Positions 6,688-24,995 of a stretch of 64,000 nucleotides of DNA are shown piece by piece. The stretch's first letter is position 1. Each line of letters starts with the position of its first letter. The DNA lies in the NCBI RefSeq assembly GCF_004364865.1, contig NZ_SOAU01000001.1, positions 4,000,001-4,064,000 on the forward strand. The letters are read 5' to 3'. The notes below the pieces were generated by a model. It was given only the letters and a program-made list of their open reading frames with translations, was not told the origin of the DNA and did not search any database. Source of the DNA: Ilumatobacter fluminis. Lineage in GTDB: Bacteria > Actinomycetota > Acidimicrobiia > Acidimicrobiales > Ilumatobacteraceae. Both the position numbers and the translations under genes were made by a program.

Positions 6688-7914
6688 TCAGGTCGTCTCG
6701 GAGCGGACGACTCGGTAGCCCTTGGCTTCGATGGCGTCGACGACGCGATCGGCATGGCGGGCGTCGCGCGTCTCGAGCATCACGTCGATGTTCGTCGCCC
6801 GCGCCGAGATCGGGTCGAACAGCCGACGGTGCTCGATCTCGACGACGTTGGCTCCCGCCGATGCGATCGCCGCCACCAACGGAGCGAGTTGGCCGGGCGT
6901 GTCGCTGACCGCGATCCGCAGGCTCGTGATACGACCCGAGTGAGCCATCTCTCGGAGCAGCACCGAGGCGAGCACCCGGGTGTCGATGTTGCCGCCGGTG
7001 AGCACGAGCGCGACTCGCTTGTCGCGCCACCGGTCGGGGTATTCGAGCAGGGCGGCCAGACCCGCGGCCCCGGCGCCCTCGGCCACGGTCTTCTCGATCT
7101 CGAGGAACAGCGAGATCGAACGCTCGATGGTCGTCTCGGGAACGGCGATCACGTCGTCGACCAGTTCGCGGACGATCGGGACGGTCAGTGAACCGGGTTG
7201 CTTGACGGCGATGCCGTCGGCGATCGTGTCGGCCTTCGACGGGGCGAGCTCGTCGCCGGCGAGTGCGGCGAGCATGCCCGGGTAGGTCTCGGACTGGATG
7301 CCGACGATCTCGACGTTCGGACGATGCGCCTTGACCCATGTGGCGATGCCGGCGATCAGTCCCCCGCCGCCGACCGGGACCATGATCGTGTCGAGGTCGT
7401 CGATCGAGTCGAGGAGTTCGATGCCGACGGTGCCCTGGCCGGCGATCACCGCCGGATCGTTGTACGGATGCACCCAGGTGAGCCCGCGTTCGTCGGCGAG
7501 CCGATCGGCGGTCTCGGACGCCTCCGCGAACGTGGCACCGGCCTGGACGACCTCGGCTCCCAGGGCTTCGGTGTTGGCGACCTTCGCGAACGGCGCCGAC
7601 GCCGGCATGACGATCGTCGCCGGGATGCCGAGTCGACCGGCGTGGTAGGCGACGCCTTGGGCATGGTTACCTGCGCTGAGGGCGATCACACCGCAGGCGC
7701 GTTCGTCGTCGGTGAGGGTGCGGAGCTTGTTCGCCGCGCCGCGGTCCTTGAACGAGGCGGTGAACTGCAGGTTCTCGAACTTGACGACGACGTCGGCGCC
7801 GGTGACGGCGGACAGGGTGCGGGAGTCGGCGATCGGCGTGCGCTCGATGTCACCGGCGATCCGGTCGGCGGCTGCTGCCACGTCGTCGGCCGAGACCGCC
7901 AGTTCCTCGCTCAC
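6688..7914 (-). CDS. ilvA: Threonine ammonia-lyase with C-terminal ACT domain
   Basis: A 408-residue PLP enzyme that deaminates threonine to 2-oxobutanoate, the entry to isoleucine synthesis or threonine catabolism. The PLP lysine is in FTASFKDRGA (Lys56), and the phosphate-binding glycine loop is VPVGGGGLIAG. Residues from about 330 to the end (ITSLRIAVSDTPGQLAPLVA...) form a single ACT domain. This single-ACT layout is shorter than the two-ACT E. coli IlvA and is typical of Gram-positive and actinobacterial forms, so ilvA versus tdcB naming is uncertain. GTG start at 7914. It diverges from lon across a 120-bp intergenic region. Confidence 0.9.
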   Translation of the reverse strand: MSEELAVSADDVAAAADRIAGDIERTPIADSRTLSAVTGADVVVKFENLQFTASFKDRGAANKLRTLTDDERACGVIALSAGNHAQGVAYHAGRLGIPATIVMPASAPFAKVANTEALGAEVVQAGATFAEASETADRLADERGLTWVHPYNDPAVIAGQGTVGIELLDSIDDLDTIMVPVGGGGLIAGIATWVKAHRPNVEIVGIQSETYPGMLAALAGDELAPSKADTIADGIAVKQPGSLTVPIVRELVDDVIAVPETTIERSISLFLEIEKTVAEGAGAAGLAALLEYPDRWRDKRVALVLTGGNIDTRVLASVLLREMAHSGRITSLRIAVSDTPGQLAPLVAAIASAGANVVEIEHRRLFDPISARATNIDVMLETRDARHADRVVDAIEAKGYRVVRSETT

Positions 7915-8034
7915 ACCGCGAACCTATCCCCTGTGGACGGTGCCGGCCCGGGTGCCGCCGGTCACGTCGAAACATCGACATTCTTCGATAGTTGACAGGT
8001 AGCGACTCAGGATTTCTTCCCGTACCGTGACAAC

Positions 8035-10365
8035 ATGTCCGAAACGTCGACGACCACCCGTCTCCCCGTCGCCATCCTCCCCACCGTCGTGCTCCCGGGC
8101 GCGACCCTCACCCTCCAGCTGTCCGACCCCCGACTCCGGCAGGCCGTCGAGGCCGCTCGCACCGACACCAACGGCCGGATCGCGTTCGTCACCGACCCGG
8201 CCGACACCCTCGGTGTCGTCGCCACCGTGCCCGACGTCGGCAAGCTCCCCGGCGGCGAACCGGTCGCCATCGTCCAGATCGACACCCGCGCCTATGTGGG
8301 CCTCGCCCGCACCGACGAGGCGGGCGGCGACGCCCGCCTCACCGCTGCCGTCGACCCGATCATCGACCCGACCCCCACCGAGCGCGTGACCGCCGCCGCC
8401 CGCGAACTGCGCGCCGTGCTCGAACTGATCGCACCGCTGCGCCGCTCGCGCCGCCTCCCCGAGATCCTCGGCAGCACCCGCGCCCCCGGGGCCCTCGCCG
8501 ATGCCGTCGCCACCTGGGCCGAGTTCGCCGACGACGACCGTCGCCGAGTGCTGCACGCCGTCGACCTGGCCGACCGTGTCGACGCGATCAGCTCGTGGGC
8601 TCGCAACCATCTCGCGGAGTTGCAGGTCGCCGAGACGATCCGCAACGACGTCAGCGAGGGCATGGACAAGCAGCAGCGCGAGTATCTGCTCCGCCAACAG
8701 CTCAACGCGATCCGCAAGGAACTCGGCGAGGGCGACGACGACGTCGTCGGCGACTTCCGTGATCGCCTCGAACAGCTCGACGCACCCGTCGCCACGAAGA
8801 ACACGATCGCCAAGGAGCTCGACCGGTTCGAGCGGATGAGCTCACAGTCGCCCGAGCACTCCTGGATCCGCACCTGGCTCGACCGGGTGTTCGACATGCC
8901 GTGGGGCGAGCGCAGCGACGACTCACTCGAACTCGACACCGCACGCGCCCAGCTCGACGCCGACCACTACGGCCTCGACGAGGTGAAAGACCGCATCGTC
9001 GAGTTCCTCGCCACCCGCAAGCTCCGCCGCGACCGCGGCATCGACGAGCGAGACGGCGAGCGCGCCACGCGAGGTTCGGGCGCCATCATCACCCTCGTCG
9101 GACCGCCAGGGGTCGGCAAGACCAGTCTCGGCGAGTCGGTCGCCCGGGCGATGGGACGCGAGTTCGTCCGCGTCGCGCTCGGCGGCATCCGCGACGAGGC
9201 CGAGATCCGCGGTCACCGCCGTACCTACGTGGGGTCGCAGCCCGGCCGGATCGTCCGTGCCCTGCAGGAGGCCGGCACCATGAACCCGGTGATCCTGCTC
9301 GACGAGGTCGACAAACTCACCGCAGGCGGCTGGTCGGGCGACCCGACCGCCGCCCTGCTCGAAGTGCTCGACCCCGCCCAGAACCACACCTTCCGCGACC
9401 ACTACCTCGAGGTCGACCTCGACCTGTCGGAGGTCGTGTTCATCGCGACCGCCAACGTCGCCGACACGATCCCTGCGCCGCTGCTCGACCGGATGGATCT
9501 GGTGCGTCTCGACGGGTACACCGAGGACGAGAAGCGCTTCATCGCCAACCGTTACCTCCTCCCCCGCCAGGTCGAGCAGGCAGGGTTGCGCAGCGACGAG
9601 ATCGACGTCGGCGACGACGTGATCTCGGCCGTGATCCGTGGCTACACCCGCGAGGCGGGCGTGCGGACGCTCGAACGTGAGCTCGGTCGGCTCGTCCGCA
9701 AGGTGACCTCGAAGGTCGCGACGGGCACCGAGACCCCGGTGATCATCGACCCCGACGAGGTGTCGGCGTGGCTCGGCCGTCCGAAGGTGACCGACGACGT
9801 GCCCGAGCGCACGAACGTGCCGGGCGTCGCCACCGGGCTCGCCGTCACCGGCGTGGGTGGCGACGTGCTCTTCATCGAGACGACGGCCTTCCCGACCGGC
9901 CCCGATGCCGAGCCGGGCCTCACCCTCACCGGGCAGCTCGGCGACGTGATGAAGGAGTCGGCGCAGATCGCCCTCAACTATGTGCGGTCACACGCCGACG
10001 AGTTGGGTCTCGACGACGAGGCACTCCGACGCCGCTTCCACGTGCACGTGCCGGCGGGGGCGGTGCCGAAGGACGGGCCCTCGGCCGGCATCACGATGAC
10101 GACGGCACTCGTGTCGCTCATGACGGGCCGCCACGTCAAGCCGACGGTCGGCATGACGGGTGAGATCACCTTGCAGGGCCAGGTGCTGCCGATCGGCGGC
10201 GTCAAGCAGAAGGTGCTGGCCGCCCATCGGATGGGCCTGACCGAGGTCGTGCTGCCGAAGCGCAACGGCCCCGATCTCGACGACGTCCCCGAACGGGTGC
10301 GTGACGAGATGACGTTCCACCTCGCCGACACCTACGACGACGTGGCCAAGGTCGCCTTCGCCTGA
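8035..10365 (+). CDS. lon: ATP-dependent protease Lon
   Basis: A 776-residue Lon protease that degrades misfolded and regulatory proteins. The N-terminal substrate-binding domain begins LPVAILPTVVLPGATLTL. The AAA+ module carries Walker A GPPGVGKTS at about 357 and Walker B ILLDEVDKL. The protease domain has the catalytic dyad Ser683 (DGPSAGITM) and Lys726 (GGVKQKVL), 43 residues apart as in the E. coli enzyme. Length is normal for bacterial LonA. TACCGT at 8023-8028, 6 nt before the ATG, suggests a leaderless mRNA. No clear HspR (HAIR) box was seen in the 120-bp divergent promoter region. Repeat copy C begins just after the stop. Confidence 0.96.
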   Translation: MSETSTTTRLPVAILPTVVLPGATLTLQLSDPRLRQAVEAARTDTNGRIAFVTDPADTLGVVATVPDVGKLPGGEPVAIVQIDTRAYVGLARTDEAGGDARLTAAVDPIIDPTPTERVTAAARELRAVLELIAPLRRSRRLPEILGSTRAPGALADAVATWAEFADDDRRRVLHAVDLADRVDAISSWARNHLAELQVAETIRNDVSEGMDKQQREYLLRQQLNAIRKELGEGDDDVVGDFRDRLEQLDAPVATKNTIAKELDRFERMSSQSPEHSWIRTWLDRVFDMPWGERSDDSLELDTARAQLDADHYGLDEVKDRIVEFLATRKLRRDRGIDERDGERATRGSGAIITLVGPPGVGKTSLGESVARAMGREFVRVALGGIRDEAEIRGHRRTYVGSQPGRIVRALQEAGTMNPVILLDEVDKLTAGGWSGDPTAALLEVLDPAQNHTFRDHYLEVDLDLSEVVFIATANVADTIPAPLLDRMDLVRLDGYTEDEKRFIANRYLLPRQVEQAGLRSDEIDVGDDVISAVIRGYTREAGVRTLERELGRLVRKVTSKVATGTETPVIIDPDEVSAWLGRPKVTDDVPERTNVPGVATGLAVTGVGGDVLFIETTAFPTGPDAEPGLTLTGQLGDVMKESAQIALNYVRSHADELGLDDEALRRRFHVHVPAGAVPKDGPSAGITMTTALVSLMTGRHVKPTVGMTGEITLQGQVLPIGGVKQKVLAAHRMGLTEVVLPKRNGPDLDDVPERVRDEMTFHLADTYDDVAKVAFA

Positions 10366-10376
10366 CGCCGGGTCTC

Positions 10377-10556
10377 CGGGTCGGGTGTCAAAGGTGACGG
10401 CGAGGAACGAGCCGTTACCGGCGATCACCTGACCCGGGACGGGTGCGCGAACCGGAGGGAACGAGCCGCCGGGTCAGACCACAGAACCCCGGAGTCAGGT
10501 GACCGCCGGTCACGGATTCGGCTGCGCCTCACCCGTCACCTCTGGCACCTGACCCG
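10377..10556. repeat. Intergenic inverted-repeat element, copy C (inverted orientation)
   Basis: A 180-bp copy of the intergenic element in the opposite orientation to A, B and D: its reverse complement aligns with them from end to end. The end at 10534-10556 keeps the standard 23-bp repeat, and the end at 10377-10399 has three differences from it. It fills the gap between the convergent lon and acyl-CoA ligase genes, where it could also act as a transcription terminator by forming a long hairpin. Confidence 0.83.
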
Positions 10557-10566
10557 CGAGGGCCGG

Positions 10567-12180
10567 TCAGACGGGGTCGTGGGTGCCGGCTCGGTAGTCG
10601 TCGCGGAGTTTGAACTTCTGGATCTTGCCGGATCCGGTGAGCGGGAACTCGGTGACCTCGAACCACTGCGCCGGGGTCTTGTGCGGTGCCAGGTGCTCGC
10701 GCATGTAGGCGAACAGCGCCGACTTGTCGACGGTCTTGCCCGGCGCCGGTCGGATGAACGCGCCGACGGTCTCGCCCCACTTCTCGTCGGGCAGGCCCAC
10801 CACGGCGACCTCGCCGACGTCGGGGTGGGCGAAGAGCAACTCCTCCAGCTCTCGTGGGTAGATGTTCTCGCCGCCGCGGATGATCATGTCCTTCAGGCGA
10901 CCCTCGACCGTGCAGTAGCCGCGCTCGTCCATCGCACACAGGTCGCCGGTGTGGAGCCAACCCTCCTCGTCGATGGCTTCGGCCGTGGCGTCGGGACGTT
11001 CGAAGTAGCCGTGCATCACGTGGTACCCACGGGTGCAGTACTCGCCGATCGTGCCGATCGGCACCGTCTCTCCCGACTCCGGGTCGATGATCTTGACCTC
11101 GACGTTCGGCATCGGGTTGCCGATGGTGTTCGCCTTGTCGTCGATGCTGTCGCTCGGATTCGTCATCGAGGCGACCGGCGAGCATTCGGTCTGGCCGAAC
11201 ACGATCGTGAACGGCGCACCCAGGCTCTCCTCGAGCCGACGCACCAGCGGTGCGGGCACCGTCGATCCGCCGGAGCAGATCGCCTCGACCTTCGACAGAT
11301 CGCTCGACTCGAACGACGGATGCTCGATCATGGCGATCAACATGGTCGGCACGCCCATCATCGCCGTGCCGCCGTACTGATCGAGCAGTTCGAGCACGAG
11401 CCCGGGTTCGAACGCCTCGACGAGCACGTGGGTCGACCCCTTCGACACCGCGCCGAGCACACCGAGCACACACCCGCCGGTGTGGAAGCACGGCATCGGG
11501 TTGACGTACACCGAGTCGCCGTAGGTGACACCCATGCGCGACGACGTGTGAGCAGCGTTGTTGACGAGACCTCGGTGATGCAGCAGCGCCCCTTTCGGGA
11601 AACCGGTGGTGCCCGACGTGTACTGGATCATCACCGGGTCGGTCGGGGCGACGTCGGGCAGGGCCACATCGGCGTCGCCGGTGGCGATGAAGTCGTCCCA
11701 GTCGCTGAGCGGGATGATCTCGCGCAACTCGGGGCAGTTGGCCTGCACCGACTCGACGGTGGCGCGCATCGGGTTCCCGCGAAACTCGTCGAGCACGAAC
11801 ACCCCCGACGCACGCGACTGGGTGAGGACGAACTCGACCTCGCTCGCCCGGAACGCCGGGTTGACGGTGACGAGCACGAGCCCGGCCATCGCAGCACCGA
11901 ACTCGAGCATCAGCCACTCGGGCACGTTCGGCGCCCAGACCGCGACCCGTTCGCCGGGCTCGAACCGCTGTGCCAGTGCTCGGGCGGTCCGTTCGGCGTC
12001 GGTCACCAGCTCGGCATAGGTCCAGCTCCGGCGACGGTCGGGCTCGGGCGTGCCGGCGACCAGGGCGGTGCGGTCGGGTAGGTCGGCGGCGGTCTCGCGC
12101 AGCAACGCGCCGATCGTGATGTCGCGCACTGCCGGCTCGGTCGGTCCGTGCGCGTGCGAGACGGTCAATGGTTCGGTCAT
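10567..12180 (-). CDS. Acyl-CoA ligase (AMP-binding), copy 2
   Basis: A 537-residue adenylate-forming enzyme with MIQYTSGTTGFPKGALLHH as phosphate-binding loop, FGQTECSPVASM as the A5 region, GWLHTGDLCAMDERGY at the hinge and LTGSGKIQKFKLRDDY at the C-terminal lysine. It resembles medium/long-chain fatty-acyl-CoA synthetases of the FadD/AtoE-neighbour type, but the substrate is not determined. The ATG at 12180 is selected because AAGGGGGA precedes it by 6 nt; an in-frame upstream start at 12222 would lose this ribosome-binding site. It is a rare case here of a clear Shine-Dalgarno. It lies convergent to lon, separated by repeat copy C. Confidence 0.9.
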   Translation of the reverse strand: MTEPLTVSHAHGPTEPAVRDITIGALLRETAADLPDRTALVAGTPEPDRRRSWTYAELVTDAERTARALAQRFEPGERVAVWAPNVPEWLMLEFGAAMAGLVLVTVNPAFRASEVEFVLTQSRASGVFVLDEFRGNPMRATVESVQANCPELREIIPLSDWDDFIATGDADVALPDVAPTDPVMIQYTSGTTGFPKGALLHHRGLVNNAAHTSSRMGVTYGDSVYVNPMPCFHTGGCVLGVLGAVSKGSTHVLVEAFEPGLVLELLDQYGGTAMMGVPTMLIAMIEHPSFESSDLSKVEAICSGGSTVPAPLVRRLEESLGAPFTIVFGQTECSPVASMTNPSDSIDDKANTIGNPMPNVEVKIIDPESGETVPIGTIGEYCTRGYHVMHGYFERPDATAEAIDEEGWLHTGDLCAMDERGYCTVEGRLKDMIIRGGENIYPRELEELLFAHPDVGEVAVVGLPDEKWGETVGAFIRPAPGKTVDKSALFAYMREHLAPHKTPAQWFEVTEFPLTGSGKIQKFKLRDDYRAGTHDPV

Positions 12181-12252
12181 CGGGTCCCCCTTCGTCCCTC
12201 GGATGAAGGGGCAGTCTCGCATGCGACCCGTGGGCGCAGCCGAGCGGAGCGG

Positions 12253-12609
12253 TCAGAGTTCGAGGTTGGCGAGCAGTTGATCGACCATGGCGGCCGACAC
12301 CGGTTTGGTGAGGAACGCGTCGACCTCGTCGGCCTCGGGCGAAAGCGCGAACTCGTCTCCTGTCGCGTAGCCGGTGAGCAGCACGAAGGGCACGGTGAGG
12401 CCCTCCCCGAGGTGGCGGCGGAGCTCGATGCCCGACATCGTCGGCATCTCCTGGTCGCTGATGATCAGATCGACATCACCGGGTCGGTACGTGTCGGCCG
12501 CCGTGGTTCCGTCGTCGGCCTCGACGACCTCGTGGCCGTGAGCGGCGAGCAGGTGGCGCAGCAAGACGCGCGACACCATGTCGTCGTCGACGATCAGGAT
12601 GCGCGCCAT
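12253..12609 (-). CDS. Stand-alone CheY-like response regulator receiver
   Basis: A 118-residue receiver domain with no output domain. The acidic pocket is ILIVDDD near the N-terminus, the phospho-acceptor is Asp52 (LIISDQEMP), the Thr switch is LLTGYA and the conserved Lys is in FLTKPVS. It is the last gene of the minus-strand operon that starts at 18471, 3 nt after the STAS gene. It probably reports a histidine-kinase signal to the phosphatase or to another partner of the module; no cognate kinase is encoded here. Confidence 0.88.
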   Translation of the reverse strand: MARILIVDDDMVSRVLLRHLLAAHGHEVVEADDGTTAADTYRPGDVDLIISDQEMPTMSGIELRRHLGEGLTVPFVLLTGYATGDEFALSPEADEVDAFLTKPVSAAMVDQLLANLEL

Positions 12610-12612
12610 GGT

Positions 12613-12930
12613 TCAGGACGCTTCGTGGATGCGGAACACGGCGTCGAACTTCGTCAGCTCGAACACGCGGAACGCGTCGTCGGAGCGGGGACGCACGAGT
12701 TCGACATCGCCGCCTTCGGTCCGAGCCGCCTTCATCGCGTGGACGAGGGCAGCGAGGCCGGCCGAATCGACGAAGTCGACGGCGGCGAGGTCGATCAGGA
12801 TCTGATGGACGCCGCCGGCGAAGACACCGTCGAGCGCGTCGCGCAACGACGGTGCGCTGAGGGCGTCGAGTCGGCCCTCGAGGGCGAGGGTGGTCGATCG
12901 GGTGACCTGGTCGGTGGTGGTGATCTTCAT
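12613..12930 (-). CDS. STAS-domain anti-sigma-factor antagonist, copy 1
   Basis: A 105-residue single STAS domain. The segment VDFVDSAGLAAL places the phosphorylatable serine at Ser56, as in SpoIIAA/RsbV. In the family, the unphosphorylated form binds and titrates an RsbW-like kinase and the phosphorylated form lets it go. The ATG at 12930 overlaps the stop of the HATPase gene by 4 nt, so the two partners are translationally coupled. GGCCTCCTGGC-side purines on the coding strand (GGAGG) precede the start. A longer frame upstream is only an overlap with the kinase gene. Confidence 0.9.
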   Translation of the reverse strand: MKITTTDQVTRSTTLALEGRLDALSAPSLRDALDGVFAGGVHQILIDLAAVDFVDSAGLAALVHAMKAARTEGGDVELVRPRSDDAFRVFELTKFDAVFRIHEAS

Positions 12931-13349
12931 GGTTGGCCTCCTGGCAGGGGGAACTCGAGCGTGGTCGTGTTGACGCCGTCGACACGTTCGTGATCGAAGC
13001 GGCGGGTGAGCTGGCGCACGATCATGAGCCCGTAGCCGTGCACTTGGGGTTCGTCGGCGGCCGGAGCGGCCTGCTCGTCGGGACGGTACTCCTTGGCGCG
13101 GTCGGTGATCACGACCTGCACCGCCCCGTCGACGGTCGTGCCGGCGAGCGTGATGTGATCGTCGGGTCCGGCTTCGCCGTCGTAGCCGTGGGTCACGATG
13201 TTGACGGCGAGTTCTTGCACGGCCAGTTCGCACTTCATCGCGAACGACTCGAGCGCGTCCGCAGCGACGGCGTCACCGGCGACCTCACGGAGCCATGGTC
13301 CGATGTCTCGGATGCTCAGCAGGTCGGCGTGGACCGTCAGTTCGTGCAC
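12927..13349 (-). CDS. RsbW/SpoIIAB-like serine kinase (HATPase, anti-sigma type)
   Basis: A 140-residue GHKL ATPase of the anti-sigma kinase type. The N box reads CELAVQELAVNIVTHGY and the G2 box is HGYGLMIVRQL. The usual DxGxxF G1 motif appears as TDRAKEYRP, so the glycine is replaced; this could weaken ATP binding or be tolerated. The GTG at 13349 overlaps the phosphatase stop by 13 nt and has GGGAGAAA 7 nt upstream. Its partners (two STAS proteins and a PP2C phosphatase) are in the same operon, but no sigma factor is, so its final target is unknown. Confidence 0.87.
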   Translation of the reverse strand: MHELTVHADLLSIRDIGPWLREVAGDAVAADALESFAMKCELAVQELAVNIVTHGYDGEAGPDDHITLAGTTVDGAVQVVITDRAKEYRPDEQAAPAADEPQVHGYGLMIVRQLTRRFDHERVDGVNTTTLEFPLPGGQP

Positions 13350-14809
13350 GACGATTTCTCCCGGCGGATGACGACGGCGGTGCGGTCGTCGCTGGCGGCG
13401 GTGTCCCCGGCGTGGCGTTCGACGGCGGCGAACAACGAGTCGACGACGACACAGGCAGGATCGCCGGCGAGGCCGGCGATGTGATCGGCGATCCATTCGT
13501 CGCCGAGCTGCGCCCGTTCGGCATTCTCCTGCTCGACGAGTCCGTCGGTCCCCATGACGACGACGTCACCGGGGACGAAGGGCAGCTCGACGGTGTCGGC
13601 GATCATGTCCTCCATCACGCCGAGCGGCGGAGCGGTCGGCGGGAGGTTGGCGAACCCGTCGGCGTTGCCGACCAGGACGGGTGAATGCCCGGCGTTCGCC
13701 AACCGGATCGTGTCGCCGTCGCGCCGGTAGACCCCGATCACCATCGTGATGAACACACCGGCTTCGCTCAGGTAGTCGGTGAGGTGGCGCGCCAGTTGGC
13801 GGAACAGTTCGTGCGGATCGGGGATGTTCGATTCGAGCGCGAGCCGTGTGGTGGTGCGCACGACCATCGTCATGACGAGTGCCGCTCCGAGCCCCTTGCC
13901 CGACACGTCGCCCACGGCGACCACGACGTGATCACCGGTCGGGATCCACAGGTAGAAGTCGCCACCGGCGAGACGCGCCGGGTCGCATCGTCCTGCGACG
14001 TCGAGCCCGTCGATGTCGGGGCTCTCACGCGGCAGCAGCATCTGGGCGAGCTTCGCCGCCGTCTCGGCATCACGCTCGATGAGGGCGCCACGAACGGCGT
14101 CGCTCTTCATCCGCTCGAGTGCGATGAGCCCGCCGGCGAAGAACGAGATCGCGTCGATCAACTTCAGGTCGGCGGTGGTGAACCGTCGATCGGGCCCGGA
14201 CGCGAGCAGCAACGTGCCGTCGGCACGGTCGGGGAACGGGCGGATGGCGACGTCGCCGACGCCGTCGACCCGTCGCATGGCGGTCCGGGTCGAGTCGCCG
14301 CTCCAGGGCAGCATGCGTGCCGCGACTGCGTCGTCTCCGACGTAGGCCGTCTCCTCGCCACCGACGAGCGCCGCGCACGAGGCACCCGTGAGGCGTAGCG
14401 CGTCGGCGACGGCGATCCGGCGCCGTTCGGCACCGGTGGCACGCGACAGCGAGCTGCGGGCGAGGTCGTAGATGGCGAGCAGCTGGTCGCCGCTCTCGAG
14501 GAGTGCACCGGCGACCTGGCCGACTTCTTCGTTCCGCGCGGCCAGCTCGCCGAGCAGATCGGCCTCGGCCTCCACTCGCTCGGTGTTGCGTCGATCGGTG
14601 CCGACCTCCCAGTGCCAATCGTGCAGCAGACCGCCGAACGGGGCCGACACGAGACGGTCCTCGTCGCAACGGCCGTCGATCACGACCACCTCGTCGCCGT
14701 AGCGGAGGCGACAGCCGTCGGCACCGTCGTTGATCCAGGTTCGGGCGAGACGCCGGAGGTGCCCCTCGACGGGGTGCAGCAGACTGGGGAGCCGCTCGAG
14801 CGTCATCAT
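13337..14809 (-). CDS. SpoIIE/RsbU-like PP2C phosphatase with GAF-like sensor region
   Basis: A 490-residue protein. Roughly residues 110-250 look like a GAF sensor domain, and residues from about 270 form a PP2C/SpoIIE phosphatase. Metal-binding acidic residues are seen in AGGDFYLW, VAVGDVSGKGLGAAL, VVMGTDGLVEQENAER and the terminal DDRTAVVIRR. The enzyme should dephosphorylate a phospho-STAS protein and so free it to capture the RsbW-like kinase. No membrane segment is evident, so it senses a cytoplasmic signal. It overlaps the STAS gene upstream by 4 nt and the kinase gene downstream by 13 nt. Confidence 0.9.
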   Translation of the reverse strand: MMTLERLPSLLHPVEGHLRRLARTWINDGADGCRLRYGDEVVVIDGRCDEDRLVSAPFGGLLHDWHWEVGTDRRNTERVEAEADLLGELAARNEEVGQVAGALLESGDQLLAIYDLARSSLSRATGAERRRIAVADALRLTGASCAALVGGEETAYVGDDAVAARMLPWSGDSTRTAMRRVDGVGDVAIRPFPDRADGTLLLASGPDRRFTTADLKLIDAISFFAGGLIALERMKSDAVRGALIERDAETAAKLAQMLLPRESPDIDGLDVAGRCDPARLAGGDFYLWIPTGDHVVVAVGDVSGKGLGAALVMTMVVRTTTRLALESNIPDPHELFRQLARHLTDYLSEAGVFITMVIGVYRRDGDTIRLANAGHSPVLVGNADGFANLPPTAPPLGVMEDMIADTVELPFVPGDVVVMGTDGLVEQENAERAQLGDEWIADHIAGLAGDPACVVVDSLFAAVERHAGDTAASDDRTAVVIRREKSSCTN

Positions 14810-15108
14810 GTGATCGTGAAGGCGAGGTCGAGCCCGGTGAGCTCGAGGATGATCTGCACGGGGTCGCTCGGGTTGCGGAGCACCAGCTCGCCGCCACGTT
14901 CGCGGACGTGCTTCATCGATCGCACGAGTTCGGCGAGCGCCGACGAGTCGATGAAGTTGACCGCTTCCAGGTCGACGACGATCGAGGCGCTGTCGACGTC
15001 GACGACCGGGTCGGCCGCAGCGCGGTAGGCCTCGACCTCGTGGGCGTCGAAGCGGCCCGACAGGCTCAGGACGGTTTCGGTGTCGGCGAGCGCGACGGAG
15101 ACGTTCAT
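14806..15108 (-). CDS. STAS-domain anti-sigma-factor antagonist, copy 2
   Basis: A 100-residue STAS protein with the phosphorylation motif VNFIDSSALAEL (Ser55, with a second serine next to it). It is distinct in sequence from the copy at 12613, so the module has two antagonists which may answer to different signals or act on different targets. The ATG at 15108 overlaps the glycosyltransferase stop by 4 nt, tying the regulatory part of the operon directly to the polysaccharide part. The upstream extension of the frame is an overlap with that glycosyltransferase. Confidence 0.9.
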   Translation of the reverse strand: MNVSVALADTETVLSLSGRFDAHEVEAYRAAADPVVDVDSASIVVDLEAVNFIDSSALAELVRSMKHVRERGGELVLRNPSDPVQIILELTGLDLAFTIT

Positions 15109-15956
15109 GCGGGGTCCTTCTCGGCTTCGGGTGCCGCGCTGCGCGGCGTGGAGTACTTGCCTTGGATCGACCAGGTGCGGATGCGCACGAGGTCCTTGAG
15201 GAACTGGATGGCGACCTTGCCGGGGTCGACGGTCGATCCCGGAGCGTCGTACCAGGCGACCGGCACCTCGGAGATCTTCATGCCGCGCTTGCGGGCCAGG
15301 AACAGGATCTCGAGATCGAACGAGAACCCGTCGATGCGCTGGACGCCGAACAGTTCGTCGGCGGCGTCTCTCGTGAACAGCTTGAAGCCGCACTGGGTGT
15401 CGCTGATCGGGATCCGGAATCCGACACGGACGATGCCGTTCAGGCCTGCGCTCATCACCTTGCGGAGCAACGACTTGTTGGCGACGTCGGCGCCGTCGGC
15501 GGCACGCGACCCGACGACGACGTCGGCACCGCCCTCGGTGATCTCGGCGAGCAGCTGCGAGAACTGTTCGATCGGCGTCGACTGGTCGGCGTCGGCGAAG
15601 AGGACGTAGTCGCCCTTCGCAGCGAGCATGCCGCGTCGGACGGCCCCACCCTTGCCGGTGTTCTCGCTCTCGATCAGGCGGAGGTTCGGCAGCCCGAGCT
15701 CGCGGACGAGCTTGCGGGTGTCGTCGGACGAGCCGTCGTCGGAGACGATCAGTTCCCAGGGCCGGTCGAGCTTGCTGATCTCGACGGCGATCGCCCCGAT
15801 CGTGGGGAGGATGCGCCACTCCTCGTTGTAGGCGGGGATGACGATGCTGATCTCGGGCGGGCCGTCGATCGGCTGTTCGGCCCACCGTCGGTACAGGTCG
15901 AGTCCGGGGGTGCCCGCCTCGGTCGTGGGCAGTGCGTCGTCGGTGCTCGAGTTCAT
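15105..15956 (-). CDS. Family 2 glycosyltransferase, dolichyl/polyprenyl-phosphate glucose synthase type
   Basis: A 283-residue GT-A enzyme. It begins its catalytic domain with ISIVIPAYNEEWRILPT, has VSDDGSSDDT for nucleotide binding and the metal-binding FADADQSTP, then CGFKLFTRDA and EVPVAWYDAPGSTVD. This is the ALG5/DPM1-like pattern, expected to transfer a sugar from UDP- or GDP-sugar to a polyprenyl phosphate at the membrane. No C-terminal membrane helices are evident. It sits in the middle of a polysaccharide trio with 4-nt overlaps to the flippase and STAS genes. Confidence 0.88.
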   Translation of the reverse strand: MNSSTDDALPTTEAGTPGLDLYRRWAEQPIDGPPEISIVIPAYNEEWRILPTIGAIAVEISKLDRPWELIVSDDGSSDDTRKLVRELGLPNLRLIESENTGKGGAVRRGMLAAKGDYVLFADADQSTPIEQFSQLLAEITEGGADVVVGSRAADGADVANKSLLRKVMSAGLNGIVRVGFRIPISDTQCGFKLFTRDAADELFGVQRIDGFSFDLEILFLARKRGMKISEVPVAWYDAPGSTVDPGKVAIQFLKDLVRIRTWSIQGKYSTPRSAAPEAEKDPA

Positions 15957-17263
15957 GTCAGCGCCTCCTCGGTCTCAGGTGCTTTTCCCATCGTCGCATC
16001 TCCGGGGCGGGGCGTGTGCGAGCGGACTCGGGCGACGGTCGAGATCGCCACGGCGGCGAGCAGGGTGCCCATCGCGATGAGCTGGACGTCGACGACGGTG
16101 CGCATCGAGTCGTGGAAGAGGAGCAGCAGCGTGGTCTGGAAGACGGCGCCCATGAGGAGCAGGTTGCTCTCTCGATGATGGCCGGCCGACAGCTGGAAGG
16201 TGACGAGCAGGTTGGCGACGGCGAACATCGATGTGGCGATCGCGTAGCCGACGAGCAGCGAGTCGACGCCGGCGTACTCGTCGCCGAACACCCCGCTCAG
16301 GAAGATGTCGCCGAACAGCCAGGCGAGCAGCACCATGAAGCCGCACGCCGCGCTGACGACGGCGACGCCGCCGATCAGGAGTCCGGTCGACTCCTCGTCC
16401 GACTCACTCCGCTGGGCAACGGCCGGGAACAGCGTCGTGACGGCCGACCAGGAGAGGAAGAAGACAGCGCGTCCGATCAGTGCGATGGCGGCGTAGACGC
16501 CGGCGGTGTCACCGTCGAAGGTGCTCTTGACGATCATCACGTCGCCGTTGTTGATCACGATCTGGCCGAGCAGCAGGACGAGGACGGGCGTGACGTAGGT
16601 GCGCAGGTCGCCGAACTCGGCGACGGTGAGCTTCGGTTCTCCGTGGATCGGTTGCATCCACCGCACCAACGCCCAGGTGGCGATGAACGACAAGGTGAGA
16701 CCGAGCGTGGCGCCGTTGACTCCGAAGCCGAGGGCGACGAGAGCGAGCCCGGCGCTGACCCGGACGATCATCTCGACGACGAAGGTGGAGGCGAGTCGGG
16801 CGAAATCGAGTCGGCCCTGCATCACGCCCCGGCCGACGGCCTGCACGAGGTAGGCGGGCATGCCGACGGCGAGGATGACGAACGGCCAGGCCGATTCGGT
16901 GTTGAACACGTCGGCCCACCAGACGGCCGGGGCGGCGAGCACGACGGCGAGAGCGATGCCGGCCCAGGTGGCCCAGCGGGCCAGCCACGCCGCCATCGCG
17001 TCGGCTCGGTCGTCGGTGCCGCGGGCTTGGTGGATGCCGGCGTAGCGGGCGGCGACGAGCTGGAGGGCGATCGCGATCGCAGTGACCAGCAACATGAGGG
17101 TCACCATCAGGTTGGCGTCGGCGAACTCGGCCGGCTCGAGCCAGCGGCCGAGCAGCAGGTTGAGCAGGTAGTTGCCGCCGTTGGCAGCCATCATGCCGAT
17201 CGCGAGCAGGGTGCCGCCCTGGAGCAGGGCCTTGCCGCCGGTGCGCTCGGCGACGTCGTTCAT
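15953..17263 (-). CDS. Polysaccharide/lipid-linked sugar flippase (MOP superfamily)
   Basis: A 436-residue integral membrane protein with about twelve hydrophobic helices. Its opening GGTLLAIGMMAANGGNYLLN and following NLLLGRWLEPAEFADANLMV match Wzx/PST-type exporters, in which the LGRWLxPxEFG motif recurs. It would move lipid-linked glycan units across the cytoplasmic membrane. Overlaps of 4 nt with the GT4 gene upstream and the GT2 gene downstream show it is part of the same transcript. MurJ is less likely because the family motifs of MurJ are absent and length is shorter. Confidence 0.87.
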   Translation of the reverse strand: MNDVAERTGGKALLQGGTLLAIGMMAANGGNYLLNLLLGRWLEPAEFADANLMVTLMLLVTAIAIALQLVAARYAGIHQARGTDDRADAMAAWLARWATWAGIALAVVLAAPAVWWADVFNTESAWPFVILAVGMPAYLVQAVGRGVMQGRLDFARLASTFVVEMIVRVSAGLALVALGFGVNGATLGLTLSFIATWALVRWMQPIHGEPKLTVAEFGDLRTYVTPVLVLLLGQIVINNGDVMIVKSTFDGDTAGVYAAIALIGRAVFFLSWSAVTTLFPAVAQRSESDEESTGLLIGGVAVVSAACGFMVLLAWLFGDIFLSGVFGDEYAGVDSLLVGYAIATSMFAVANLLVTFQLSAGHHRESNLLLMGAVFQTTLLLLFHDSMRTVVDVQLIAMGTLLAAVAISTVARVRSHTPRPGDATMGKAPETEEALT

Positions 17264-18471
17264 CGGTTGGCCTCGACGAGCGGCTCGAGGTGGCTCAGGT
17301 GCCAGTCCATGACTTCGGAGAACGGGATGCCGGCTGCAGCCGCGAAGTTCCGTCGTCCCATTTCCTCACGGCGCGCCGGGTCGTCGATGACGGCCGCGAT
17401 CGCGTCGGCGAGGCTCTCGGCGTCGGCAGGGTCGAAGTACTGGCCGATGAAGCCTTCCTCCTCGATCACCTCGGCGAAGTCGCCGATGTTGGGGAGCACG
17501 GCGGCGCGCCCGTAGCTCCCGGCCTGGTGGAGCACCCCGGAGCTGCCGGTCGTCGAGGTGTACGGGAAGACGGTGGCAGCGGCGCTCGAGAACAGGACGG
17601 GGACGTCGTCTTCTTCGACGTAGCCGGTGAACACGACGCCGGGCAGATCGGCGCAGGTCTCGGCGACGCCGGCGAGGTAGCCCTTGCTGTTCGGGCTGTC
17701 GGTGCCGGCGATGACGACCTCGACGTCGTCGTAGCCACCGCGCTCCAGCAACAGGCGATAGGCCTCGATCAGCACGTCGACGGTCTTGTAGGTGCCCCAC
17801 TTGCCGAACGCCAGCAGCTTGCGGGGCCCGTCGGGCACGCCGAAGTCGGGTTCGTCGATGACCTCGAACGCGCCGTGGGGGACGAGCAGCACATTGTCGG
17901 CGCCGTACGAGTCGCGCAGCATCTCGACGTACCGGGGGATGGTGAGCGCGACGTAGTCGGCACGCAGGATGACCTTGGTGAGCATGCGACCGGCGAACGA
18001 CATCGCCTTCGCGACGAGCTTGTTCGAGGCGAAACCGGCGTCCTCCATGTCGACGTTCTCGACGAGGTTGTGGAGCACGACGCCGGTCGGGACACCCATC
18101 ATCGAGACGACGGCGGGGGCGAGGAGGCCGAGCCCGCCGGCGATGCGGCTGTCGCCGAACGTGGCGAACTGGAGGTTGAACAGCACGGCGTCGGGCTTGC
18201 TGCGACGGACCGCTCGGGCGATCCGCCACACGTTGCGGATCGAGTTGAACTCCCAGCACACCTCGACGTCGACGTCATCGACCGGGGTGGGGGCGCCCTC
18301 GGGGGTGTCGTCCGCGTACAACACGACGGTGTCGACCTCACGCTTGGGCGCCAGGTTCGTCACCATGTGCCACCCGAACTCGTTCAGGCTGTTCTTGCCA
18401 GGAGGGAACGCCGATACGACGCCGACACGCATCCCGGTCGAAGCCTGATCGATTCCCGCACTCTCAGTCAT
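17260..18471 (-). CDS. Family 4-like glycosyltransferase
   Basis: A 403-residue GT-B glycosyltransferase and the first gene of the eight-gene operon. MRVGVVSAFPPGKNSLNEF opens the N-terminal Rossmann half (residue 14 onward), and the C-terminal half carries GKWGTYKTVDVLIEAYRLL, FTGYVEEDDVPVLFSSA and the donor-binding TSTTGSSGVLHQAGSYG. The sugar and acceptor are unknown. TAGCGT at 18484-18479 lies 7 nt before the ATG, indicating a leaderless transcript, with a TTGATC direct repeat of 11-bp period just upstream. Confidence 0.87.
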   Translation of the reverse strand: MTESAGIDQASTGMRVGVVSAFPPGKNSLNEFGWHMVTNLAPKREVDTVVLYADDTPEGAPTPVDDVDVEVCWEFNSIRNVWRIARAVRRSKPDAVLFNLQFATFGDSRIAGGLGLLAPAVVSMMGVPTGVVLHNLVENVDMEDAGFASNKLVAKAMSFAGRMLTKVILRADYVALTIPRYVEMLRDSYGADNVLLVPHGAFEVIDEPDFGVPDGPRKLLAFGKWGTYKTVDVLIEAYRLLLERGGYDDVEVVIAGTDSPNSKGYLAGVAETCADLPGVVFTGYVEEDDVPVLFSSAAATVFPYTSTTGSSGVLHQAGSYGRAAVLPNIGDFAEVIEEEGFIGQYFDPADAESLADAIAAVIDDPARREEMGRRNFAAAAGIPFSEVMDWHLSHLEPLVEANR

Positions 18472-22148: not shown

Positions 22149-24839
22149 TCATCCGGCGCATCGCACGCCGTCGAGGGTGACGTCACCCGGAATCGTGGGC
22201 AGAGCGTCGCCGCGATGTCCGATGAACCCGAAGGTGACCGAATCGCCGGCCGCGATCACCCGGTTCCAGTGAGCGGGGGTCACGGTCACGTCGGACCCCG
22301 TCTGGTCCATCACCGCCGACCAGTTGGCCCGCACCTGCTCGTCACCGAGGAACGTCCAGCCCAGCTCCCAGCCGTCCCAGGCGATGTCGCCCGTGTTGAC
22401 GAACTCGACGTTGGCGATGAACGCACCGTGCCAGGTCGCCGTGACGTCGTAGTCGAGCCGGCACGCAGCCGTCGGCTCGACCGGGATCACGACCTCGACC
22501 ATGTTGTCGGTCGACGTCGACGCCGCCGTGGCGACGCCGTCGGCGTCGGTGGCAGCAGCAGCAGCGACCGTCACGGTGACGGCACCGGACGGCGCCGGCG
22601 CGTCGACGGCGGCCACGGTCGCCCGGTAGCGGAGGCCCGGCGTCAACTCGGTGATGGTGGTCGTCGTGGCGACCGGAGTCTCCACGACGACGTCGTCGGC
22701 CGAGAACCCGACGACGGGCTCGGCGAACACGACGTCGAACGCCACCGGCCAGGCTGCCGACGGGTCGGCCTGCGCTGCGGCCTGCTCGACCCGGACCGCG
22801 ATCGGGGTCGGCTCGACCGGCTCGGGGGCCACAACCGTGACATCGATCGGCGAACCGTTCCGGAAGCCGATGTGGGCGGCAGGGCGATCGGTGATGACGC
22901 CGTCGACCGAGATCTCGGCCAACGCCTTCCAGGTCGCCGCGTCGTTGACGGTGTAGGGCATCACGGCCACCCCGATGTCGTGCATCTGGGTCACGAATTC
23001 GGGGTTGCCGAGGAGCCAGCCGGCCGACATGTTCCACGACGACAGCTCGAGGTCGCGTGCCAGCGCGACGGGGTCACCGCTCGGCGTGCTCAGGTAGGCG
23101 CGCGGGATCTCGGGGGCGGCATCGCGAGCCCAGGCGATGTAGGTCGCGTTGAAGCTCTGGATCAGGACCTGTTCTTCCATCCCGCGCTCGCGGATCTGGG
23201 CGACCGCCTCGGCCATCTCGTCGGGACCGCTGATGTTCTTGACCTCCCAGACGACGATCGAACCGCGACCGTTCGCGAGATCGAGCACGTCCTCGAAGAA
23301 CGGCACCGCCTGACCGGCGTATGCCGGAGAGAACCACGAGCCGGCGTCGATCGAACGTAGGTACTCGTCGGTCACACCGGTGGTCGACCCGGTGCCGTCG
23401 GTCGTCCGGTCGAGGGTGCCGTCGTGCATCACGACGTTGCTGCCCTCGGCCGTGGTGTAGGTGTCGATCTCGAACATCTCCGCACCCGTGCGGATCGCCG
23501 ACTCGAACGCGGCGAGCGAGTTCTCGGGGGTGACCGACGAGTTGCCGCGGTGCGCGATCGTCACCGGTCCCTCACCCGGCTCCCGGATGAACGAGATCGG
23601 CTCGTACGGCAACTCGGACACGACGAGATCGTCGATGCTGATGCGGGCACCGTCGGCGATGAAGCCGAGGCCTCCGTCGCCGGAACGAGCGATCGCGTTC
23701 GTCTCGAGCACGAGCTGGTCGTCGAAGTACCACTCGCCGCGCGAGCCACGGACGATGATCCGGACGTCGACGTCGGTGCCGACGCCGGCATTCGTCGGCG
23801 CAGCGGCACGATCGGTGACATTCCAGCCGTTGGAGGCGGTGCGGATCGCGAACTCGATGCCGTTGGTCGCCGTGGATGTCGACCGCATGACGGCGTGTGA
23901 CCACGGCACGGACCCGTCGGCCGCGGCGTCGGTCATGATGCCGGCCCACCGCGACGAGTTGTTCACCGATTCGAAGCGCATCGTGGCCGACACCTCGAAG
24001 TCGTCGAGGTGCGGGCCGAAGGTGATGCGACCGATCGACGTCGGCGCGTCGAGATGGAGCCGACCGTCGTGCACCGACCAGTCGCCCGAGACCGGCGTGA
24101 ATCCCTCGGGCAACGAGTCGCCGTCGAACGACTCCTCGAGTCGGAACAGCTCGGGTTCGGGCTCGGTCGGGAGCGGTTCGAGCTCGGTCACCACGATGTC
24201 GTCGTACGCGACCGTGCCGCCGGTCATCGCGAAGCCGAGCACGCCTGCGTCGCTGCGCGTCATGACGTCGGTCGTCAGGACGAGTTCGTCGTTCAGGAAC
24301 CACTCACCCGAGTCACCGTGGACGTCGATACGAACCGAGACATCGTTGCCGACTCCCGGGGCGGGTGCGGTCGATGCGTTGGTGACGTTCCATCCGTTCG
24401 AGGCAGTCCGCTCGGCGAACTCGACGCTCGTGCCGTCGGCTCGGACGACCGCCTGCCACCACGGGGCCGACCCGGTCGGGGCGATGTCGGTGACCACGCC
24501 GGCCCATCGGTTCGCGATGTTGACGGCGTCGAATCGCATGTCGAACTCGATGCGGAAGTCATCGAGTGTCGGGTCGCCGAATGTCAGGATGGCGGGGGCG
24601 TAGCTGTCGCTCATGTGGCCGATCAGCTCGCCGTCTTCGACCGACCAGTCACCGGTTGCGGCCAAGAAACCGTCGGGAAGCGTTCCGTCGGCCGTCGAGT
24701 CGAAGTCTTCGGCGAACACGACGTCACCAGGGGCGGCGGACGACGAGCCGGCGCCGACGAGCGTCGCCGACGCCAGTGCGGCGCCGGCGAGTGACAGGGC
24801 GACGGCACGATGCCGTCGCCCGAGGGATGCGGGTTTCAT
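22149..24839 (-). CDS. Secreted glycerophosphodiester phosphodiesterase with LamG-like and CBM2 domains
   Basis: An 896-residue exported protein. A signal peptide (AVALSLAGAALASATLVGAG, cleavage near SSAAPGD) is followed by two homologous beta-sandwich domains at about 35-215 and 225-410 (VVFAEDFDSTADGTLPDGF; ESFDGDSLPEGFTPVSGDW). A GDPD domain at about 426-665 has TIAHRGNSSVTPENSL, EIDTYTTAEG and MHDGTLDRTTDG. After a linker comes a C-terminal carbohydrate-binding CBM2-like domain (about 792-896; CRLDYDVTATWHGAF, WDGWELGWTF). It should cleave glycerophosphodiesters or teichoic-acid-like polymers outside the cell while attached to polysaccharide. GAGGAG precedes the ATG. The frame runs open upstream, but that part lies antisense to DUF2254. 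Confidence 0.87.
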   Translation of the reverse strand: MKPASLGRRHRAVALSLAGAALASATLVGAGSSSAAPGDVVFAEDFDSTADGTLPDGFLAATGDWSVEDGELIGHMSDSYAPAILTFGDPTLDDFRIEFDMRFDAVNIANRWAGVVTDIAPTGSAPWWQAVVRADGTSVEFAERTASNGWNVTNASTAPAPGVGNDVSVRIDVHGDSGEWFLNDELVLTTDVMTRSDAGVLGFAMTGGTVAYDDIVVTELEPLPTEPEPELFRLEESFDGDSLPEGFTPVSGDWSVHDGRLHLDAPTSIGRITFGPHLDDFEVSATMRFESVNNSSRWAGIMTDAAADGSVPWSHAVMRSTSTATNGIEFAIRTASNGWNVTDRAAAPTNAGVGTDVDVRIIVRGSRGEWYFDDQLVLETNAIARSGDGGLGFIADGARISIDDLVVSELPYEPISFIREPGEGPVTIAHRGNSSVTPENSLAAFESAIRTGAEMFEIDTYTTAEGSNVVMHDGTLDRTTDGTGSTTGVTDEYLRSIDAGSWFSPAYAGQAVPFFEDVLDLANGRGSIVVWEVKNISGPDEMAEAVAQIRERGMEEQVLIQSFNATYIAWARDAAPEIPRAYLSTPSGDPVALARDLELSSWNMSAGWLLGNPEFVTQMHDIGVAVMPYTVNDAATWKALAEISVDGVITDRPAAHIGFRNGSPIDVTVVAPEPVEPTPIAVRVEQAAAQADPSAAWPVAFDVVFAEPVVGFSADDVVVETPVATTTTITELTPGLRYRATVAAVDAPAPSGAVTVTVAAAAATDADGVATAASTSTDNMVEVVIPVEPTAACRLDYDVTATWHGAFIANVEFVNTGDIAWDGWELGWTFLGDEQVRANWSAVMDQTGSDVTVTPAHWNRVIAAGDSVTFGFIGHRGDALPTIPGDVTLDGVRCAG

Positions 24840-24961
24840 GGGGGTGGAGGTCTCCTCTGTGGGGCGGACGAGCGGAACGTAGGAGTCGGTTCCGACGTGC
24901 GAGTGGCCGTGGGGTGTGACCGAGGTGAAGTCGCGGCGAAGTCCTCGGTCGGCCCGACCTG

Positions 24962-24986
24962 GTTGGACGTGGGTGACACCGGGTAC
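24962..24986 (+). promoter_or_regulatory. SigF/SigB-type promoter of the DUF2254 gene
   Basis: GTTG (24962-24965, one mismatch to GTTT), 15 bp, GGGTAC (24981-24986), 9 nt, then ATG at 24996. Same spacing as the other three sites. Confidence 0.55.
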
Positions 24987-24995
24987 TCCGTTCGC

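Follow-up and report, generated by a model that had tools for sequence, protein, structure and literature searches.

A Partner-Switching Module Encoded with Polysaccharide Genes in Ilumatobacter fluminis May Act on Glycan Assembly Rather than on a Sigma Factor

Introduction

What does a partner-switching module act upon when its genes are encoded together with glycosyltransferases and a flippase and no sigma factor gene is linked to them? The question is raised by an eight-gene operon of Ilumatobacter fluminis, located in a stretch of 64,000 nucleotides that was analysed as a whole (hereafter the window; positions 4,000,001 to 4,064,000 of contig NZ_SOAU01000001.1, assembly GCF_004364865.1). 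On the minus strand, one after another, lie genes for a GT4 glycosyltransferase, a flippase, a GT2 glycosyltransferase, a first STAS protein (STAS1), a PP2C/SpoIIE-type phosphatase (PP2C), an RsbW-like kinase, a second STAS protein (STAS2) and a receiver. An initial annotation, made from the DNA letters and their open reading frames, described this arrangement and proposed that the kinase might act on the glycan machinery itself. The comparative analysis described here inclines us, by a little, toward a modified form of that proposal, in which the operon would be one half of a surface-polysaccharide system with its own post-translational switch, and the output of the switch would be a STAS protein acting on the glycan set and not on a sigma factor. 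If this is true, the cell may control at the protein level whether the polymer is assembled. The targets of SypA, the STAS protein of the Vibrio fischeri syp system, and of similar STAS outputs are an open question in biofilm biology.

Results and Discussion

Conservation of the Operon

Successive genes of the operon overlap by 4, 4, 4, 4, 13 and 4 nucleotides and the receiver gene follows after a gap of 3 nucleotides, exactly as first described, and Pfam supports every one of the original assignments. Because the genes overlap, it is likely that all eight are carried on a single transcript, as had been assumed; consensus scans, the only kind made, found neither a sigma-70-like promoter nor an intrinsic terminator at either end of the operon.

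The same set occurs in relatives. A search of the class with PP2C only (296 genomes) gave one full-length relative besides the window, G263 (Acidimicrobiales MAG-125), which carries the full set of eight on its contig, arranged as in the window and with PP2C and kinase sharing an open frame. The identities to the window proteins are 65% for GT4, 56% for the flippase, 59% for GT2, 50% for STAS1, 32% for PP2C, 35% for the kinase, 54% for STAS2 and 39% for the receiver. A two-row PP2C profile run over the order matched 23 of 397 genomes at a score of at least 196 bits, the window genome among them, and in 18 of the 22 other loci of the order all eight follow one another on one strand as they do in the window (L115 was counted as complete after a search with 25 kinase queries). 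The remaining four comprise L106, L118 and L119, which are cut by contig ends, and L108, which is without GT4 and flippase. Further copies of the eight-gene set were found in Agreia bicolorata VKM Ac-1804, Actinokineospora sp. NBRC 105648 and Acidimicrobiales MAG-27; the single window PP2C used as a query for related loci returned nothing, and a 21-row PP2C alignment returned relatives such as Agreia. The distribution within the order is patchy, since the PP2C profile had no match in the 17 same-genus or same-family genomes shown, and the module is rare outside the order, since a phylum-wide draw of 396 genomes gave no PP2C score above 200 bits except in the window's own genome.

Beyond the phylum, the window GT4 matched four Deinococcus plasmids (390-460 kb) at 48-51% identity. 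Around GT4 these carry a permuted and partly fused set (L283-L286), consisting of GT2, GT4, STAS, PP2C, kinase and STAS with a flippase or a frame of the same size (matched in two of the four). A response regulator is present in three of the four clusters, and a homologue of a large membrane protein, described below with the associated proteins X and Y, in all four. Homologues of X and Y were found in L283 and, via L283, in L284, and a homologue of Y in L286; neither X nor Y scored in L285. Fusions recur across these loci: GT2 is fused to GT4 in three of the four Deinococcus clusters, and PP2C to the kinase in three of the four (L284-L286) as well as in L039, L119 and L122; the Deinococcus fusions were read by comparing frames with matches and, for L284, with Pfam. 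These comparisons indicate that the gene set is not a chance neighbourhood and that glycan genes and partner switch are evolutionarily tied; the system has probably spread horizontally. Three neighbouring features were seen in passing. In L123 the kinase and STAS2 lie in one open frame (10693-11364, plus strand), a possible kinase-STAS fusion; a second, partial homologue of the large membrane protein lies upstream of the Deinococcus actinosclerus cluster (L285, 4158-4715, plus strand); and a polysaccharide pyruvyl transferase is encoded near the Actinokineospora cluster (L171, 17889-19112, plus strand).

The residues expected of a working switch are likewise retained. In the aligned rows, which include those of G497 (156 bits; a 5.4-kb contig with PP2C, receiver and STAS2 only, outside the operon count), Ser55 of STAS1 is present in 26 of 26 and Ser56 of STAS2 in 27 of 27. 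The metal-binding aspartates of a PPM/SpoIIE phosphatase (D284, D301, D422, D474 and D475 of PP2C) and the receiver residues D52, T79 and K102 are found in all 27 rows, and E46 and N50 of the kinase N-box in all 24; the L039 kinase, read separately, has both too. The sequences thus have the features of an RsbU/V/W-type partner switch, namely the STAS serine, the PPM/SpoIIE Asp residues and the Glu and Asn of the GHKL N-box. With order kept in 18 of 22 loci and these residues intact, the initial description of a complete partner-switching set, with two STAS proteins and a receiver, tied to glycan genes, is supported.

Loci without Phosphatase and Kinase

A second architecture bears on which part of the switch contacts the glycan machinery. 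In five genomes (G299, G541, G406, G426 and G555) the locus has GT2 with GT4, two STAS proteins, a flippase, a hybrid kinase, an H-NOX protein and a kinase; GT2 and GT4 form a single frame in four of the five and are cut by a contig end in the fifth, and X and Y were seen beside four of them. At these five loci 25 kinase and 6 phosphatase queries found no PP2C and no RsbW-type kinase (a lone match in L250 involves the STAS portion of the L123 fusion used as a query), and the order-wide PP2C profile matched none of the five genomes. Of their ten STAS proteins, seven score above a Pfam STAS cut-off, and every one of the ten has another residue in place of the serine. The serine is kept in 61 of 61 STAS proteins of PP2C-bearing clusters (26 STAS1, 27 STAS2 and 8 of 8 from Deinococcus) versus 0 of 10 here (Fisher p 2e-12, uncorrected for relatedness).

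Since a protein that binds only the kinase should vanish with it, the retention of STAS proteins beside glycan genes at loci without the kinase is most simply explained if their target is the glycan machinery. STAS, and not the kinase, is therefore likely to be the part that contacts this machinery, and the loss of the serine where the kinase is missing from the locus suggests that STAS is active when unphosphorylated. The proposal that the kinase itself acts on the glycan machinery finds no support in these five genomes, which keep two STAS proteins, glycosyltransferases and flippase. The comparative evidence does agree with the wider idea behind it, that the switch targets glycan assembly instead of a sigma factor, STAS rather than the kinase being the likely effector. 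In the strict form of the kinase proposal, GT4, GT2 or the flippase would be phosphorylated directly. Membership in the same operon and the lack of a sigma partner nearby agree with this, but STAS proteins are the known substrates of RsbW-type kinases, neither STAS serine varies among PP2C-bearing clusters, and the kinase can be missing at a locus where STAS stays. Direct phosphorylation of the glycan proteins is accordingly regarded as very improbable.

Sigma Factors

The conventional role for such a kinase is that of an anti-sigma factor, and its sigma factor might be encoded elsewhere, with the glycan genes merely co-transcribed or in the regulon. Eight sigma queries from the window genome found no SigB-type sigma gene in the window or in 27 operon loci (441 kb from 25 genomes, the Deinococcus loci lying outside this check), and the control locus was recovered; one ECF-like (extracytoplasmic function) sigma fragment lies ∼6 kb from the operon in L174. 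The absence of a linked sigma factor noted at the outset is therefore supported, as regards SigB-type genes, at these loci, and in the gene order of relatives no sigma factor appeared as the clear partner of the kinase with the glycan genes as coincidental neighbours. The window genome does encode a SigB/F-like sigma away from the operon (232.9 bits, just under the family cut-off of 234.35), together with several other sigma matches, and in this respect an anti-sigma role gains ground. It also gains from Pseudomonas aeruginosa, where a two-hybrid test showed binding of HsbR/HsbA to RpoS although the pair had earlier been regarded as lacking a direct sigma target (PMC6482189). The SigB/F-like sigma, however, probably has its own kinase, because a kinase-like frame lies just upstream (HATPase_c_2, 26.6 bits, under the cut-off of 27.4) and a divergent STAS-PP2C pair is found nearby. 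Given also that STAS proteins persist at loci without the kinase, we consider it unlikely that the kinase of the operon serves as an ordinary anti-sigma factor.

A separate observation concerns locus L041 (G000:C1:2958000-2974000), in which a long minus-strand frame (6801-10670), by eye of the phytochrome type, has a PP2C match near its end. It lies close to a STAS gene and an RsbW-like kinase on the other strand (G000:C1:2967840-2968516, plus strand), perhaps a second sigma-less switch.

A Candidate Input Side

The initial annotation did not raise an input side, which is linked to the operon in relatives and comprises a hybrid kinase with an Hpt domain, an H-NOX protein and a second kinase; in the window genome both these and further genes of the set are found elsewhere. 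GT4 is immediately preceded, on its own strand, by the hybrid kinase, H-NOX and the second histidine kinase in 13 of the 22 order loci, and the same block adjoins GT4 on another contig of two more genomes (L165 and L166), which brings the total to 15 of 22; three loci (L107, L108 and L118) could not be judged. Of the 13 H-NOX-adjacent hybrid kinases 11 were scanned, and all 11 have HisKA, HATPase, receiver and Hpt domains above the Pfam cut-off. A REC-Hpt protein is encoded directly upstream of GT4 in L121 and L115 (the L115 contig starts inside that protein), and a HisKA-HATPase-REC-Hpt protein stands beside the operon in Actinokineospora and, on the opposite strand, in Agreia. An Hpt domain needs a receiver as phosphate acceptor, and because the operon ends in a lone receiver with intact key residues, a phosphorelay is proposed to join the two.

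The H-NOX proteins have what we take to be the motifs of the family, YxSxR in 36 of 36 and the proximal His pattern in 34 of 36, and the copy of the window genome has both. H-NOX scored above the cut-off in 38 of 397 order genomes (taken as the same draw as in the PP2C search), that is, in 22 of 23 operon genomes versus 16 of 374 others (Fisher p 7e-25, uncorrected for relatedness). The lone operon genome without H-NOX, G462, is 90% complete, and some of the 22 carry further, distant H-NOX copies. Among the 16 genomes outside the operon count, G387 has the H-NOX block and GT4 at a contig end, five have the second architecture, and ten are without glycan matches, several of them on contigs of 7-11 kb. 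A nitric oxide (NO) input is well linked in relatives, and for the window genome we infer it.

The single H-NOX of the window genome lies 2.25 Mb from the operon, in a block whose genes follow one another on the same strand. They encode a 1070-residue membrane-type protein, X (a match to Invasin_D3, immunoglobulin (Ig)-like), Y (a match to Cellulase/GH5), a STAS-like protein just under the Pfam cut-offs, a hybrid kinase with PAS-HisKA-HATPase-REC-Hpt domains, H-NOX and an unmatched protein, so that the hybrid kinase precedes H-NOX. The large membrane protein may be a GT-C transferase; it is labelled GT-C-like only because a relative in L103, 59% identical to it, shows PMT_2 and PTPS_related matches below threshold, of which the window genome's copy has none. 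Elsewhere block and operon come together: a single contig of G402 carries the block genes, except the one for the STAS-like protein, next to GT4 and flippase, and G305 has X, Y, hybrid kinase, H-NOX and kinase beside its operon.

Proposed Mechanism

These observations can be combined in the following way. GT4 and GT2 would build or charge a lipid-linked sugar unit and the flippase would turn it outward, while the other half of the system elsewhere in the genome (the large membrane protein, the Ig-like X and the GH5-like Y) would finish or trim the polymer. The kinase would phosphorylate, and PP2C dephosphorylate, the conserved serine on both STAS proteins. Phosphate would reach the operon receiver, as terminal acceptor, from a hybrid kinase that has REC and Hpt domains and is often encoded next to the H-NOX gas sensor in Acidimicrobiales, and the phosphorylated receiver would shift the balance between kinase and phosphatase. 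Unphosphorylated STAS would be the output and would act on the glycosyltransferase/flippase set, presumably by binding its enzymes; we infer both NO as the signal and the sign of the response.

A broader reading, which we hold tentatively and at somewhat short of even chances, is that of a self-contained polysaccharide machine found across phyla. Its STAS pair would gate the glycosyltransferase-flippase set directly. Its sensor front end would be swappable, Acidimicrobiales using an H-NOX phosphorelay and Agreia and Actinokineospora other hybrid kinases, and lineages without kinase and phosphatase at the locus would have kept a serine-replaced STAS. STAS proteins do occur with glycan genes in Acidimicrobiales, two further actinobacteria and Deinococcus, and since natural loci exist both with the kinase and without it, the idea of direct gating could be tested with a few purified proteins.

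Several points weigh against STAS as the output and against an H-NOX input. The events behind the operon/H-NOX co-occurrence and serine-loss counts are not independent, and the serine loss comes from just five genomes, which group as a single clade in the GT4 tree. Three of the ten second-architecture STAS proteins fall below the Pfam cut-offs, the kinase search in these genomes covered the locus, and a STAS protein kept without the kinase could have taken on a new role. Four of the 22 order loci (L112, L115, L116 and L121) are without the H-NOX block beside GT4, and no H-NOX match was found in the Agreia, Actinokineospora and Deinococcus loci. In G496, G580, G360 and G382 the H-NOX nearest in sequence to the operon-linked type precedes a hybrid kinase, a different order from that of the linked block, and is unlinked to the operon. 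In the window genome, H-NOX and hybrid kinase branch with those of G595, in which no operon was seen, outside the operon-linked clade; the protein after H-NOX (L081, 6674-7444, plus strand) has no Pfam match and by eye no kinase H-box, in a position occupied in relatives such as L103 by a normal histidine kinase. The NO input is for these last two reasons weakest in the window genome.

The same two observations, together with the distance of 2.25 Mb, suit an alternative in which the system is as proposed but the window receiver is fed by another hybrid kinase, the H-NOX block being a separate system. The distant block, on the other hand, keeps the order of the contiguous clusters (membrane protein, X, Y, hybrid kinase, H-NOX). 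The window GT4 groups in its tree with those of G496 (support 0.66) and G364 (0.88), and G364 also has a separate block in the same order, while in G496 the membrane protein, X and Y adjoin the operon and H-NOX is elsewhere. Moreover, neither H-NOX nor the operon occurs in the 17 same-genus or same-family genomes shown. A separate H-NOX system therefore seems to us rather doubtful, if worth keeping in mind.

The STAS proteins might instead have another target, a diguanylate cyclase for example, so that the polymer would be controlled via cyclic di-GMP. Related switches have outputs of this type, HsbA-HsbD (PMC6482189) and SiaC-SiaD (PMC8457831); a REC-EAL protein adjoins the H-NOX block of the window genome in convergent orientation (L081, 7493-8674, minus strand), and a GGDEF gene lies upstream of one Deinococcus cluster. 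The constant neighbours, however, are glycan genes, and control through cyclic di-GMP appears improbable beside a STAS output that acts on the glycan set.

Parts of the Operon and Its Surroundings

The coordinates of the operon are collected in Table 1. The window GT4 had no sequence match in the PDB. Among solved structures GT2 is nearest in sequence to dolichol monophosphate mannose synthase (5mlz, E 6e-18); chondroitin synthase and undecaprenyl-phosphate transferases come next. NCBIfam polyprenyl-phosphate hexosyltransferases such as AglJ were matched far below their cut-offs, and GT2 is probably of the polyprenyl-phosphate sugar transferase type. The Pfam STAS E-values of the two STAS proteins are 3e-17 and 4e-18, and both score above the NCBIfam cut-off for TIGR00377 (anti-sigma factor antagonist). 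The predicted phosphatase domain of PP2C has a fold matching the phosphatase domains of SiaA, RssB and Rv1364c. A GAF sensor is a conceivable reading of its N-terminus, although none is among the 50 PDB matches listed, and residues 1-123 are mostly of low confidence in the predicted structure.

Table 1. Positions in the window of the eight genes and of the two expected phosphoacceptor codons
Feature	Position	Strand	Basis
GT4 glycosyltransferase, 403 amino acids	17260..18471	(-)	Pfam Glyco_trans_1_4 E 7e-19
Flippase, polysaccharide exporter family, 436 amino acids	15953..17263	(-)	Pfam Polysacc_synt_3 E 8e-11; 56% identical in G263
GT2 glycosyltransferase, 283 amino acids	15105..15956	(-)	Pfam Glycos_transf_2 E 2e-29
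STAS1, 100 amino acids	14806..15108	(-)	Pfam STAS
STAS1 Ser55 codon, expected phosphoacceptor	14944..14946	(-)	Sequence and conservation
PP2C/SpoIIE-type phosphatase, 490 amino acids	13337..14809	(-)	Pfam SpoIIE E 4e-39
RsbW-like (GHKL) kinase, 140 amino acids, GTG start	12927..13349	(-)	Pfam HATPase_c_2 E 2e-15 on longer reading
STAS2, 105 amino acids	12613..12930	(-)	Pfam STAS
STAS2 Ser56 codon, expected phosphoacceptor	12763..12765	(-)	Sequence and conservation
Single-domain receiver, 118 amino acids	12253..12609	(-)	Pfam Response_reg E 3e-18

An acyl-CoA synthetase gene on the same strand (10567-12222) begins 30 nucleotides past the receiver; it was rejected as a ninth member of the operon, as it does not come next in the loci of relatives. 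Elsewhere in the window a very long open frame (22149-25928, minus strand) appears by eye to have repeated lectin-like segments and a glycerophosphodiester phosphodiesterase-like part.

Relation to Known Systems

No description of this cluster was recognised among the open-access papers listed by the searches, most subscription papers being outside their reach. In protein families the switch resembles RsbU/RsbV/RsbW of the SigB/SigF systems, with the same three families and catalytic residues; it differs in that no linked sigma was found, two STAS proteins are present and glycan genes belong to the operon. SypE of the V. fischeri syp system is one kinase-receiver-phosphatase chain, whereas the window has three separate proteins, and syp has one STAS protein where two are found here. 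PP2C and kinase are fused in some relatives, but the receiver is separate in the loci read, and because such a single chain was not found the window system is not placed in the syp or Hsb family.

In P. aeruginosa, hybrid kinases signal through HptB to HsbR (receiver, PP2C and kinase) and on to HsbA, with RpoS, FlgM and HsbD as outputs (PMC6482189). The likeness extends over hybrid kinases, Hpt, receiver, PP2C and kinase, STAS and a biofilm output (PMC6482189). HsbR differs in being one chain, with FlgM, RpoS and the cyclase HsbD as outputs. To our knowledge the Hsb genes are not encoded with polysaccharide genes. HmpU/HmpV/HmpW of Nostoc punctiforme is a partner switch named for motility and polysaccharide, similar by description and also with an unknown downstream target; an Anabaena protein joins a STAS domain to a glycosyltransferase (PMC8256260).

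The syp system offers a close parallel in its regulators, to which, and not to the glycan genes, the comparison is confined. A STAS protein with a regulatory serine there controls polysaccharide from genes of the same locus, post-transcriptionally; the SypE kinase/phosphatase is a response regulator, and the NO sensor HnoX inhibits a kinase feeding an Hpt phosphorelay (PMC12369376, PMC4517449). SypA is active with its serine changed to alanine and inactive as a phosphomimic, and the authors had no evidence for an anti-sigma antagonist role and regarded its mechanism as unknown (PMC4517449). SypE exerts its control over SypA below transcription; HnoX, which binds NO, inhibits HahK, and HahK acts via SypF (PMC12369376). 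The two systems differ in that hnoX and hahK form their own operon, in the presence of the transcriptional regulator SypG in syp, no such gene having been noticed in the window system, and in the phyla to which they belong. By analogy, the window system may work like the syp and Hsb systems; if so, it would be an actinobacterial counterpart of the circuit that leads from an NO sensor to polysaccharide in Vibrio.

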